The translations under genes and the position numbers were made by a program. A DNA stretch of 24,614 bases, taken from positions 1-24,614 of IMG/VR virus record IMGVR_UViG_3300035698_018157; one strand, written 5' to 3'. Shown here in pieces: positions 19,063 to 24,385 of this stretch; position 1 is the stretch's first letter, and every line of letters begins with the position of its first letter. The stretch is from a virus. A model generated the notes under the pieces. The model had not been told where the DNA came from, did not search any database, and worked only from the letters and a program-made list of their open reading frames with translations.

Positions 19063-20034
19063 ATGATTTTTGAAGAACAGATTAGTAGAAAACCCGACAA
19101 TTACCCTTGGACGCAGCAATTTATCGAGGCAGCACAAAACGGATTTTGGACGCACAGAGAATTTAATTTTCAAAGTGACGTTCAAGACTTTTTAGTTAAA
19201 TTAACAGAACAGGAAAGGCAGATTGTAGTGCGGGCACTTTCTACAATAGGCCAGCTAGAGATTAGCGTGAAAAAGTTTTGGAGCAAACTAGGGGATAATT
19301 GTCCACATCCTTCGCTATACGACTTGGGCTTTGTATTTGCCTCGCAAGAAGTTATACATGGAGATAGCTACGAAAGCTTGTTGGAAAAACTAGGATTAGA
19401 ACAAGCATTTGACGATCTTTTAAAGCAAGATATTATACAAGGCCGAGTTGGATATCTCAAAAAGCATTTGCACAAATTTCATGCTGATAATAAAAAACAG
19501 TTTGTTTATTCAATAATTCTTTTTTCTATTTTTATTGAAAATCTTGCGCTTTTTTCTCAGTTTTATACTATAATGTGGTTTGGAAGATTCAAAAACGTTC
19601 TAAAGGACACAGACAAGCAGGTAGATTACACATCGAGAGAAGAAAACTTGCACTTTGAAGCTGGGGCAAAAATTATCAATACCATTAGAGAAGAGCATCC
19701 AGAGCTTTTTGACGAAGAATTAGAGATTAAGATTCGTTCAGAATGCCAAGAGGCAATCGAGTATGAGTTTAAAATCATTGAGTGGATTGTTAATGGATAT
19801 AACGAGGATGGACTAAATTCGGAACTACTTAAAAACTTCATTAAAAACCGCTTGAATGAAAGCTTGGTTAAAATTGGGTATTCTGCAATGTTTGATATTG
19901 ATTCGCAGTTGTTAGCCAAAACTTCTTGGTTCGACGAACAAATACTTGGCAACAATCACAGCGACTTTTTCTTTGGTCGCCCCACCGAATACTCTAAGAA
20001 ATCAAAAAGTTTCGACGAAAACAGTTTATTTTAA
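19063..20034 (+). CDS. nrdB: Class I ribonucleotide reductase, small (beta) subunit
   Basis: The 323-residue protein carries the ligands of the di-metal, radical-generating beta subunit: E66 at the position of E. coli D84, E96 and H99 in QEVIHGDSY with the radical tyrosine Y103, E159 in FIENLALF, and E194/H197 in EENLHF. Y310 near the C-terminus (PTEY) matches the tyrosine that relays the radical, and the acidic hydrophobic tail (DENSLF) would dock in the alpha subunit. It works with NrdA, encoded 2 bases downstream, to reduce ribonucleotides to deoxyribonucleotides. The first ligand as Glu rather than Asp also occurs in some subclasses, such as Chlamydia-type Ic, but the tyrosine is kept here. 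Confidence 0.9.
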   Translation: MIFEEQISRKPDNYPWTQQFIEAAQNGFWTHREFNFQSDVQDFLVKLTEQERQIVVRALSTIGQLEISVKKFWSKLGDNCPHPSLYDLGFVFASQEVIHGDSYESLLEKLGLEQAFDDLLKQDIIQGRVGYLKKHLHKFHADNKKQFVYSIILFSIFIENLALFSQFYTIMWFGRFKNVLKDTDKQVDYTSREENLHFEAGAKIINTIREEHPELFDEELEIKIRSECQEAIEYEFKIIEWIVNGYNEDGLNSELLKNFIKNRLNESLVKIGYSAMFDIDSQLLAKTSWFDEQILGNNHSDFFFGRPTEYSKKSKSFDENSLF

Positions 20035-20036
20035 TA

Positions 20037-22496
20037 ATGCAAAACGAAAAATACAAATGGCTTAACAGCGCAAGTAAACAATTTTTAGCCAACGGTTACT
20101 TAGAACAAGACGAAGATGCTATTGAAAGATTTTCTAATATTGCAATGTCAGCAGAAAAATCACTAGGGATAAAAGGGTTTGCAGAAAAATTTGAAAATTA
20201 TCTTTCTTTGGGGTATTATTCTTTATCTTCGCCTATCGTATCAAACTTTGGCAAAAAAAGAGGGTTGCCAATTAGTTGTTTCAGCGTGCTTGTTCCTGAC
20301 AATACTGCGGGGATTCTAAACAAAGCATCTGAGGTTGGCATTATGAGTAAGAGCGGGGGCGGCACAGCAGGATTCTTTGGAAAAGTAAGGTCAAGAGGTT
20401 CTGTTATTTCTACTGGTGGCGCAACAGACGGACCAGTTAGATTCATGCAAATCTTTGAAACAGTTACAGATGTGATTAGTCAGGGCGGAGTTCGCAGGGG
20501 TTCATTTGCAGCGTATCTTCCGGTAGAGCATCCAGACATTTTAGAATTTTTACAAATAAGAGGCGAAGGCCACCCAATTCAAAACATTAGTTTGGGAGTT
20601 ACCATTACTGATAACTGGATGGAAGAAATGATTGGTGGAGACAAGCCAAAAAGAAAAATTTGGGGAAAGATTTTAGAAAAAAGAAGTGAGACTGGATATC
20701 CATATATTTTCTTTACTGACACGGCTAATAATAATGCGCCGCAAGTTTACAAAGATAAGGGCAAGACTATTCATTCGAGTCAACTTTGTGTTACTGGCGA
20801 CCAAAGAGTCGTATCGCAGCACGGAATGTTAACCGCCAAAGAGCTTTGTGAAATTGGCGGCGAGTTACAATTATTTGACAATAAAAACATTGTTGGTGCA
20901 GAACCAATGACTTTGGTTGAAAGAAATGCCGATGTTTACAAAGTTTGTTTGAGTAACGGTATGGAGCATAAAGTAACTGGATATCATAAGTTAGTGAAAT
21001 TCATCAACAAAAAACAAAATGTTGGAGAAGCACAGGTAATAACCACAGAAAATACAGAAGTTAAAAATTTAAAAGTTGGTGATTTTGTTGCTGTTCAAAC
21101 TGCAAAAGGCATTTTTGGAAAGAAAAAGATGCCAGCCGAAGCTTTTTTATTGGGCAAGCGACTAAGGAACGAAACAAAAGAACACGTTCCAAGCTGGATT
21201 TGGCAATCTGACGAAGAAACCGTTTGGCAATACATAAGGGGTCTTTTTTATGTAAAAAACTCTGTTCTCATTGGCAAGTCTAACGGCAAGGCAATTCAAC
21301 CCTACATTTCTTCTACTAACGTTGAGTGGTTAAAAGAAATCCAGTTGCTTCTAAGCAACCTTGGAGTAAAAACATCTATCAAAATATTAAGGACTCTTTT
21401 GCCTAACAGCAAGAGCGACCGCTCAGAACGCAAAACAAAAGACTGCTGGAGGCTCATCATAGGCAATGAACTCGACGCCAAGAAATTCCACAAAATAACC
21501 TCGATTAGTTATGAAGGAAAAGAAGATGTTTATTGCACCACAGTTGATTCAAAAGAACACCTTTGGGTTTGCAACGGATTCGTAACGCACAATTGCGCGG
21601 AGATTTTTTTAAGCACAGATGAAGACGAATCGTTTGTATGCAACCTTTCGTCAATGAATCTTTTGAGCTATGAAGAATGGAAAGACACTGATGCTGTAGA
21701 AACACTTATTTATTTTTTAGACGCTGTGATGTCTGAATTTATTGAAAAAACAACAGGCGTTCAACACATGGAATGTTCAAGAAAATTTGCTGTTTCTCAA
21801 AGGGCTTTAGGGCTAGGCGTTTTAGGTTGGCACAGCTATTTGCAGTCAAAATCAATTCCATTCGAATCAATGGAAGCCAAAATCAAGAATGTGGAAATAT
21901 TTAAATTGTTGAGAGACAAGTGTTTACAGGCCTCAAAAGATCTAGCCGTGATGTTTGGCGAACCAGAACTATTAAAAGGATATGGTTTGCGCAACGTAAC
22001 GCAAATGGCAATCGCGCCAACAACTTCATCTTCTTTTATTTTTGGCGGGGTTTCACAAGGAATCGAACCAATGAATAGTAATTATTTTGTTAAAAAGCTG
22101 GCCAAAGGAAATTTTACTTACAAAAACCCTTTTTTAAAAGAAGTATTAAAGAAATACAACAAGAACGACGAAGGCACTTGGAAGTCAATTCTAGTAAAAG
22201 GCGGCTCGGTGCAGCACTTGGAATTTCTTTTGGAAATCGAAAAGAATACTTTTAAGACCTTTGGGGAAATCAGCCAAAAGGAAATTGTTATACAAGCCGC
22301 GCAACGTCAAAAGTATATTGATCAAGGTCAATCGCTCAATCTAATGATTCCTTCGGATGCAGAGCCTCGGGATATTAACGCCCTGTTGATTGAGGGCTGG
22401 AGATTGGGAATTAAAACTTTTTATTATCAGCGCGGGGCCAATCCTGCACAAGAATTAGCAAGAAAGTTGAATCATTGCGTTAGTTGCGAGGCGTAA
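20037..22496 (+). CDS. nrdA: Class I ribonucleotide reductase, large (alpha) subunit, intein-containing
   Basis: The 819-residue precursor contains a 269-residue intein (residues 251-519), leaving a mature protein of 550 residues, short for NrdA (commonly 700-850) and without an evident ATP cone. Catalytic residues of the exteins are present: C81 (GLPISCFSV) and C535 (SFVCNLSSMNL) as the redox pair, C520 as the thiyl-radical cysteine (CAEIFLS), Y796-Y797 in TFYYQRG for radical transfer, and the C-terminal CVSC pair (C814, C817) that re-reduces the site. GGVRRGS and APTTSSSFIFGGVSQGIEP are further family motifs. It converts ribonucleotides to deoxyribonucleotides with NrdB. Activity requires protein splicing. 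It ends 19 bases before the next promoter's -35. Confidence 0.92.
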   Translation: MQNEKYKWLNSASKQFLANGYLEQDEDAIERFSNIAMSAEKSLGIKGFAEKFENYLSLGYYSLSSPIVSNFGKKRGLPISCFSVLVPDNTAGILNKASEVGIMSKSGGGTAGFFGKVRSRGSVISTGGATDGPVRFMQIFETVTDVISQGGVRRGSFAAYLPVEHPDILEFLQIRGEGHPIQNISLGVTITDNWMEEMIGGDKPKRKIWGKILEKRSETGYPYIFFTDTANNNAPQVYKDKGKTIHSSQLCVTGDQRVVSQHGMLTAKELCEIGGELQLFDNKNIVGAEPMTLVERNADVYKVCLSNGMEHKVTGYHKLVKFINKKQNVGEAQVITTENTEVKNLKVGDFVAVQTAKGIFGKKKMPAEAFLLGKRLRNETKEHVPSWIWQSDEETVWQYIRGLFYVKNSVLIGKSNGKAIQPYISSTNVEWLKEIQLLLSNLGVKTSIKILRTLLPNSKSDRSERKTKDCWRLIIGNELDAKKFHKITSISYEGKEDVYCTTVDSKEHLWVCNGFVTHNCAEIFLSTDEDESFVCNLSSMNLLSYEEWKDTDAVETLIYFLDAVMSEFIEKTTGVQHMECSRKFAVSQRALGLGVLGWHSYLQSKSIPFESMEAKIKNVEIFKLLRDKCLQASKDLAVMFGEPELLKGYGLRNVTQMAIAPTTSSSFIFGGVSQGIEPMNSNYFVKKLAKGNFTYKNPFLKEVLKKYNKNDEGTWKSILVKGGSVQHLEFLLEIEKNTFKTFGEISQKEIVIQAAQRQKYIDQGQSLNLMIPSDAEPRDINALLIEGWRLGIKTFYYQRGANPAQELARKLNHCVSCEA
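20787..21593 (+). mobile_element. Intein in NrdA with degenerate LAGLIDADG core
   Basis: The intein runs from C251 (block A, CVTGDQRVVSQHG) to N519 (block G, VTHN) and is followed by extein cysteine C520. Block B is VTGYHKL, a TxxH-type match, and block F is VYCTTVDSKEHLWVCNGF. Splicing residues (first Cys, His-Asn at the end, +1 Cys) are all present, so splicing should work. At 269 residues it is longer than a mini-intein but shorter than one with a full homing endonuclease. The middle retains a piece resembling the second half of a LAGLIDADG domain (VPSWIW..., YIRGLF, STNVEWLKEIQLLLSNLGVKTSI), yet the DADG part reads YVKN, so endonuclease activity is probably lost. Confidence 0.9.
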
Positions 22497-22795: not shown

Positions 22796-22839
22796 TGATG
22801 AATAATTTAGATTATTTCAACAGAAAAGATTAATTGATA

Positions 22840-23775
22840 ATGAATAAAATGAATGTATTAAGTTTATTTGATGGTATTTCATGTGGGCAAATCGCTCTTG
22901 AACGCGCGGGAATTAAAGTAAACAAATATTTTGCTAGTGAAATCGACAAACACGCAAATCAAGTCACGCAACATAATTATCCTAACACAATCCAACTAGG
23001 TAGCGTAATCGAACTTAAGCCCGATTACTTACCTAAAATTAACCTTTTGCAAGGAGGAAGCCCGTGCCAGTCTTTTTCTTTTTCGGGAAAACAAAATGGA
23101 ATGACAACAGTAGATAATGTTGAAATTACTACACTTGAACAATATTTAGAATTAAAAGAAAACAACTTTAAGTTTGAAGGTCAGTCTTATTTATTTTGGG
23201 AATACGTTAGAATACTCAAGCAAGCCAAGCCAGATTATTTTTTGCTAGAAAACGTAAAGATGTCAAAAAAATGGCAAGATGTAATTTCTTCTACGTTGGG
23301 CGTAGAACCCATAAAGATTAACAGCTCTTTGGTAAGTTCGCAAAACAGAGTCAGAAATTATTGGACAAATATCTCCAAAATAACTCAGCCAGAAGATAAG
23401 GGAATAGTTCTTAAAGATATTCTTGAGTCAGATCAAGAAAAAATTAAAAAGCATTTTTTGAGCGAAAAAGCAACGGCCTCAATTAAAAGATACCAAGATT
23501 CGAAATTAAAAAATAATAAAAATACTTCAAAGTCCCCAACCTTAACTACAGAGTTGTCCCGTCTATGGGGCTTTCAATTCGCTCCTAGATGGTGCAAGGA
23601 AATAGATTGCTATAGAATGCCTTCGCCTATAGAGTGTGAAAGGCTTCAAACATTACCAGACGATTATACTAATAGAATTAGTAATACGCAAAGATATAAA
23701 GCATTGGGCAATGGCTGGACAGTAGACGTAATTGCTCATATATTTAGTTTTCTTACTAAAGATGACAATTTTTAA
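22840..23775 (+). CDS. DNA (cytosine-5)-methyltransferase
   Basis: The 311-residue protein has the ordered C5-methyltransferase motifs: I, VLSLFDGISCGQ (SAM binding); IV, GGSPCQSFSFSG with catalytic C76; VI, FLLENV (E137); VIII, SSQNRVRNYW; IX-like, RMPSPIECERLQTLPDDYT; X, YKALGNGWTVDVI. It methylates cytosine at C5 in a specific DNA sequence using SAM. The organisation is the compact type seen in phages and resembling Dnmt3 in motifs I and IV. No restriction endonuclease gene is adjacent, so it is probably an orphan, protective or regulatory methylase. I take ATG 22840; ATG 22849 is also possible. It overlaps the Mom-like gene by 14 bases. Confidence 0.9.
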   Translation: MNKMNVLSLFDGISCGQIALERAGIKVNKYFASEIDKHANQVTQHNYPNTIQLGSVIELKPDYLPKINLLQGGSPCQSFSFSGKQNGMTTVDNVEITTLEQYLELKENNFKFEGQSYLFWEYVRILKQAKPDYFLLENVKMSKKWQDVISSTLGVEPIKINSSLVSSQNRVRNYWTNISKITQPEDKGIVLKDILESDQEKIKKHFLSEKATASIKRYQDSKLKNNKNTSKSPTLTTELSRLWGFQFAPRWCKEIDCYRMPSPIECERLQTLPDDYTNRISNTQRYKALGNGWTVDVIAHIFSFLTKDDNF

Positions 23776-24385
23776 GAACATAGATATTAGACTTATCAGC
23801 AGAAACGATTGCAAGCCATTCTTGTTGCAAATACATTATGCAAAAAGAATGCCTCATGTAAAATTTGCATTCGGCGCTTTTTACGACAACGATTTATTAG
23901 GGGTAATAACCTATGGCGTTCCAGCGAACAACAATTTAAATTCATTAGGCAATTTTAGCTGTTTAGAATTGAACCGATTATGCTTAAAAGATAATATTAA
24001 GAACTTATCGTCTTTCCTAATTGGCAATTCATTAAAATTACTGCCAAGACCGTTGGCGTTAGTTTCTTATGCAGATTCCTTGCATAACCATTGCGGCTAT
24101 GTCTATCAGGCGACTAATTGGATTTACTGCGGAATATCAAAAGGTGATAAAGAATATGAAATAAACGGTAAGTTGTTTCATAGGAAAAATTGTTTTAATA
24201 AATTTGGGACAGGATCGTTAGTAAAGATTCAAGAGTTATTCGGCGTAGATAACGTAAAGGTTATTTTACAAGGAGATAAATATAGATATTTTCAGTTATT
24301 AGGTAATAAAAAACAAAAAAAAGAAATGAAACTAACTTTGGAATCTAAATATAAAATATTACCTTATCCGAAAATAGTTAAATAA
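23762..24385 (+). CDS. Mom-like DNA modification protein (GNAT-type)
   Basis: The start at 23762 is preferred: it overlaps the methyltransferase end by 14 bases, while the upstream ATG at 23732 adds a hydrophobic stretch encoded by the methyltransferase in another frame. The 207-residue protein shows the pattern of the phage Mu Mom family: HYAKRMPHVKFAFGAF (about 25-40), LLGVITYGVPA (about 45-55), LELNRLCL (about 68-75), LVSYADS and GYVYQATNWIYCG (about 99-124). Mu Mom, a GNAT-related enzyme, converts adenine to N6-(methylcarbamoyl)adenine and makes DNA resistant to many restriction enzymes. The exact base product here cannot be read from sequence. No com-like zinc-finger translation activator is visible next to it. 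Confidence 0.8.
   Translation: MTIFKNIDIRLISRNDCKPFLLQIHYAKRMPHVKFAFGAFYDNDLLGVITYGVPANNNLNSLGNFSCLELNRLCLKDNIKNLSSFLIGNSLKLLPRPLALVSYADSLHNHCGYVYQATNWIYCGISKGDKEYEINGKLFHRKNCFNKFGTGSLVKIQELFGVDNVKVILQGDKYRYFQLLGNKKQKKEMKLTLESKYKILPYPKIVK

Follow-up and report, generated by a model that had tools for sequence, protein, structure and literature searches.

A decayed homing intein at the predicted radical cysteine of a phage ribonucleotide reductase

The gene for the α subunit of ribonucleotide reductase (RNR), nrdA, in the virus record IMGVR_UViG_3300035698_018157 contains a 269-codon in-frame insertion. We interpret it, with a probability of about 0.9, as an intein of class 1 that splices in cis and occupies the radical-cysteine site of a phage NrdA, derived from a LAGLIDADG homing intein of ~376 aa whose endonuclease has been lost, with purifying selection on the splicing halves remaining strong. 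The window, that is, the whole stretch of 24,614 nucleotides analyzed here, is a 24.6-kb virus record carrying phage replication genes (helicase, primase, recombinase, and exonucleases). Both the element and its site are of known kinds; the window copy is an unusually clear intermediate and reveals no new mechanism. All the states that the homing cycle of a selfish intein predicts are displayed at this single RNR insertion point, and the window copy, with its sibling and its intact sisters, provides a clean intermediate and a good test set for the loss of intein mobility; it might also supply splicing elements for direct attachment to a catalytic cysteine.

The nrdB-nrdA locus and the insertion site

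An intact nrdB is directly followed by nrdA, and the open reading frame at 20037-22496 (819 aa) corresponds to the RNR α subunit NrdA (NCBIfam TIGR02510, 683 bits for the whole protein, above the cut-off). The features of the locus are as follows:

19063..20034, + strand: nrdB, RNR β subunit, 323 aa (Pfam Ribonuc_red_sm, 8.1e-52)
20037..20786, + strand: N-extein of NrdA, residues 1-250, ending in SSQL (aligns to 6dqw up to Cys286)
20787..21593, + strand: intein, 269 aa, precursor residues 251-519 (profiles, alignment, and fold)
20787..21134, + strand: N-terminal splicing half, intein residues 1-116, with Cys1 and block B T64-x-x-H67 (conservation, dN/dS)
21135..21482, + strand: endonuclease relic, intein residues 117-232 (dN/dS, loss of conserved positions)
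21144..21155, + strand: remnant of LAGLIDADG motif 1, FLLG only, followed by a large deletion (alignment)
21231..21260, + strand: decayed LAGLIDADG motif 2, YIRGLFYVKN, family YIRGLxYxDG (alignment)
21483..21593, + strand: C-terminal splicing half, intein residues 233-269, with VYC (block F position 4, Cys250), H258, and VTH268-N269 (conservation)
21594..21596, + strand: codon of C520, the +1 splicing nucleophile and predicted thiyl-radical cysteine, equivalent to E. coli Cys439 (aligned to 6dqw Cys286)
21594..22493, + strand: C-extein of NrdA, residues 520-819, stop codon to 22496 (NCBIfam TIGR02510)

The intein occupies 807 nt (269 codons) between the flanks SQL/CVTGDQ and VTHN/CAEI, and the two exteins combined amount to 550 aa. 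The best solved structure match of NrdA is 6dqw (2.9e-187), and both flanks of the intein align to one and the same residue of this RNR α chain, Cys286. Together with the match of the SQL/C520 site to the E. coli motif SNLC439, this makes C520 at once the +1 nucleophile and the cysteine predicted to carry the radical. In E. coli RNR, the thiyl radical forms at Cys439 (PMC4728125). The initial annotation had placed the intein at 20787-21593, just before the predicted radical cysteine, and these coordinates proved exact.

For NrdB, the best solved structure matches are 6sf4 and 5olk (E about 1e-80). These nearest known structures, 6dqw (α) and 6sf4/5olk (β), belong to manganese class Id enzymes, and the reductase encoded at 19063-22496 may be class Id-like, an interesting cofactor type for a phage; class Id membership would also call for a matching metal site in NrdB. 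Close to the radical cysteine, Gln249 (20781-20783) replaces E. coli Asn437, a residue that contacts the substrate ribose; the Asn437Gln change inactivates the E. coli enzyme. Among phage RNRs with an empty site, one large group commonly carries Gln at this position (many loci within L175-L252), which rules out a special change caused by the intein. Because Gln249 stands in for a substrate-contacting Asn, activity of the spliced NrdA is assumed. Downstream of nrdA, a Mom-like DNA modification protein (23732-24385; PF25680, 1e-35), encoded beside a DNA methyltransferase (22834-23775), suggests that the phage DNA is modified.

Splicing domain and endonuclease relic

The element matches Pfam Intein_splicing (PF14890, 5.5e-9) and the NCBIfam models for the intein C-terminus, above the cut-off, and N-terminus, at 6.4e-4 and below the curated cut-off. 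Its AlphaFold model (pLDDT 87) matches intein crystal structures with a best E of 7.6e-10; the splicing domain is modeled confidently, whereas the endonuclease relic is uncertain, with the region around residues 204-215 under pLDDT 50. The residue set of class 1 is complete (C1, T64-x-x-H67, H268-N269, and C520 at +1). Across 37 members of the intein family, C1, H67, C250, T267, and N269 do not vary at all, and T64 and H258 hardly do; the window intein keeps 33 of the 35 family-conserved positions in its splicing halves, including all 10 in the C-terminal half. A HINT domain recognized by profile and fold, this residue set, and an in-frame insertion into a conserved host protein with empty-site relatives together characterize a class 1 cis-splicing intein. 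Class 3 inteins have no N-terminal nucleophile and carry the WCT set (Trp at B:12, Cys at F:4, Thr at G:5); despite Cys250 at F:4 and Thr267 at G:5, this class is ruled out by the presence of Cys1 and by Leu69 at B:12. Searched for structured RNAs, group I introns among them, the window gave no Rfam match at gathering scores.

The intact and constrained frame of both exteins argues that the intein still splices. The reaction would start with an N-S acyl shift at Cys1, continue with transfer to C520 and cyclization of N269 aided by H268, and end with an S-N shift yielding the 550-aa NrdA with SQL-C-AEI restored.

The endonuclease has fared differently. Alignment with full-length sisters bears out the decay proposed in the initial annotation: motif 1, FLLGxYQxDG in the sisters, is cut to FLLG, and motif 2, YIRGLFYTDG in the sisters, reads YIRGLFYVKN, the lost Asp and Gly being conserved positions. 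Relative to the 376-aa sisters, the in-frame deletions comprise a gap of 75 plus 8 alignment columns immediately after FLLG, followed by gaps of 4 and 26; the first half of the endonuclease is largely gone. An intact LAGLIDADG pair, set beforehand as the finding that would speak against decay, was sought by profile search and not found: LAGLIDADG_3 (PF14528) matches once (1.2e-4), starting at profile position 19, so that a single partial stretch compares with two in the full-length relatives scanned. The core keeps 28 of the 40 positions conserved in full-length members; six such members, each scored in turn, retain 36/42 to 40/40. The AlphaFold model of full-length L025 is confident throughout and matches both intein endonucleases and I-DmoI. 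In a survey of 62 inteins, the only members of the window's family without both motifs are the window copy, its sibling, L092, and L164; L159 shows a single Asp-to-Asn change. A functional LAGLIDADG homing endonuclease has two motifs with catalytic acidic residues, which the window intein lacks; profile search and alignment rule out an intact enzyme, and by comparison with full-length relatives of the family the endonuclease is judged to be dead. Mini-inteins, defined by absence of the endonuclease domain and a length of about 130-200 aa, are likewise distinct from this 269-aa element with its relic of about 116 residues, which stands between full-length and mini-intein, as had been proposed.

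The same state is found in the sibling contig IMGVR_UViG_3300023301_002423 (L005/L011/L091), which encodes a 269-aa decayed intein of 88% amino acid identity with the deletions of the window copy and YVRN in motif 2, its divergence lying mostly in the core. A separate contig with identical in-frame deletions at 12% protein divergence rules out an assembly artefact. The ancestor would have been a full-length LAGLIDADG homing intein of about 376 aa, which presumably lost its endonuclease through in-frame deletions and the loss of the second catalytic Asp-Gly. The window intein would no longer home, persisting through vertical inheritance and because its inexact loss would destroy NrdA.

Selection on the intein and alternative readings

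Substitution rates and counts refer to one pair of contigs, the window and its sibling. In this comparison, the splicing halves have a dN/dS of 0.035 (bootstrap 0.007-0.095) and intein residues 1-110 one of 0.03, the exteins 0.037 as bootstrap median (0.061 for N and 0.021 for C), and the core, intein residues 111-232, 0.35 (bootstrap 0.20-0.69). The splicing halves are thus as constrained as the NrdA enzyme, and the core is relaxed about tenfold relative to them. Replacement and silent changes number 30/20 in the core versus 4/24 in the splicing halves (Fisher p 1e-4), with no difference between splicing halves and exteins (p 1) in the same pair. The constraint on the splicing halves, set against the relaxed core and its lost positions, indicates that splicing has been maintained and homing has not. 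Since the core value lies below 1, part of the relic may stay constrained, perhaps for folding.

The initial annotation held that any loss of excision must be lethal to the enzyme. This stands for the loss of splicing, which would kill the product, but not for precise loss of the intein DNA: 71 of the 80 closest NrdA relatives carry no insertion at the site, and the intein is therefore losable by precise deletion.

The decayed endonuclease could also belong to a dying intein that no longer splices, residing in a pseudogene or an inactive nrdA, and intein-bearing phage nrdA genes have become pseudogenes elsewhere, as in Campylobacter phage Cpt10 (PMC3653736). We consider this very improbable, given that the exteins and splicing halves have open frames under strong constraint (dN/dS about 0.02-0.06), that all splicing residues are kept, and that nrdB is intact; Gln249 at the place of Asn437 would fit an inactive enzyme, but the same residue is common in empty-site phage RNRs. 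Least credible of all is continued homing of the shortened intein as a half-size LAGLIDADG dimer. Single-motif LAGLIDADG enzymes do exist as homodimers, and the core dN/dS is below 1, but in the two copies known, the sole remaining motif (YVKN/YVRN) is without the catalytic Asp and the Gly, and 26 aa of conserved sequence are deleted.

A different type of explanation holds that the intein is kept since conditional, for example, redox-sensitive, splicing delays or controls dNTP synthesis. RNR offers a precedent in the Aquifex R2 intein, which increased iron loading and gave a twofold rise in activity (PMC8772380). Strong conservation of the splicing halves would fit as well, although it is equally expected if excision is simply maintained. 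The sequence shows no feature that calls for regulation, and most of the nearest relatives do without an intein at this site, making such a role very unlikely; we found no evidence supporting the post-translational control suggested in the initial annotation. Scarcely more probable is the related proposal that, after loss of the endonuclease, the intein was retained as splicing at the radical cysteine benefits the phage, e.g., by delaying or redox-gating the activation of NrdA, with the relic core still helping.

Inteins at the same RNR site

Earlier work describes inteins in phage RNRs and a general preference of inteins for conserved catalytic regions (PMC3653736, PMC8772380, PMC10448857); among the papers searched, we found none that states the exact radical-cysteine site. 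In translated nrdA/nrdE loci, inteins occur at exactly the window position in SPbeta, a Staphylococcus SPbeta-like phage, Brochothrix A9, a Silviavirus, Salicola SCTP-2, Pectobacterium phiTE, Curvibacter P26059A, and the huge phage LR756511. An alignment-based scan recovered 79 loci in viral contigs, and every junction read out corresponds to the same RNR site, with a downstream shift of one codon in two cases; genome contigs yielded three loci, all at this site, and plasmids one weak match only. Placement of an intein at this catalytic residue of RNR is thus recurrent and not special to the window phage.

Among the 80 nearest NrdA relatives, the empty sites read (S/T)NL/C without an insert (L032, flagged by the pattern only through its reading TNL, is empty). 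The nine occupied sites comprise the sibling (L011), full-length inteins (L025, L027, and L036), mini-inteins (L013, L014, and L019), and split inteins (L028 and L035). The radical-cysteine site accordingly holds empty, full-length, partly decayed, mini, and split states.

Relatives of the window's family at this site are mostly 362-377 aa long, with both LAGLIDADG motifs intact. The nrdA intein of LR756511.1 (367 aa) and those of L025, L027, and L036 (376 aa) share the family and site of the window intein, with 49-57% identity in the alignment, but differ in being full length with both motifs intact. L092 (242 aa) and L164 (187 aa), of the same family and site, also have a reduced endonuclease; because their deletion edges differ from those of the window copy, these are probably separate losses. 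On the best tree, endonuclease loss in the family takes 2 changes (1-3 over bootstraps). L164, like L019 (144 aa), is a true mini-intein at the window's site.

More distant are the SPbeta BnrdE intein (385 aa) and those of the Staphylococcus SPbeta-like phage and Brochothrix A9, at about 30% identity; they resemble the window intein in the SNL/C site of the RNR α subunit and in class 1-type termini, but retain both LAGLIDADG motif regions, reside in nrdE, and have VYD (Asp) rather than VYC (Cys) in block F. The split inteins of L028 (2456-5403) and L035 (2411-5403) have their halves at the window's site, recalling the fractured nrdA genes of Dassa et al. 2009, as cited in PMC3653736; unlike in the window, nrdA is divided into two genes around a free-standing HNH-type ORF, and the inteins belong to a different group. 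The Aquifex aeolicus NrdB (R2) intein also adjoins catalytic residues of a class I RNR, but in the β subunit, at another site, and with its LAGLIDADG endonuclease present (PMC8772380).

Several variants were observed at or near this site. The mini-inteins L013 and L014 (about 155 aa) and L019 represent another intein group with a different C-terminus. Eight loci (L002, L003, L009, L010, L173, L174, L189, and L202) carry inteins ending in LTGQ/C, with Gln for Asn and a Cys at block F position 4. Inteins of the window's family in L149 (4001-5125) and L159 (4001-5104) are inserted one codon downstream, SN(M/L)C/C...N/SEI, which leaves the radical cysteine at -1 and makes Ser the +1 nucleophile; use of the radical cysteine for splicing, claimed in the initial annotation, thus applies to the window intein but is not obligatory. 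These two do not group in the tree, though the topology test fails to reject their common origin (AU p 0.20). Finally, the nrdA genes of L004 (LR756511.1) and L092 each hold a further intein, at P(I/V)S/CF, just before the equivalent of E. coli Cys225; inteins therefore occur in both catalytic cysteine loops.
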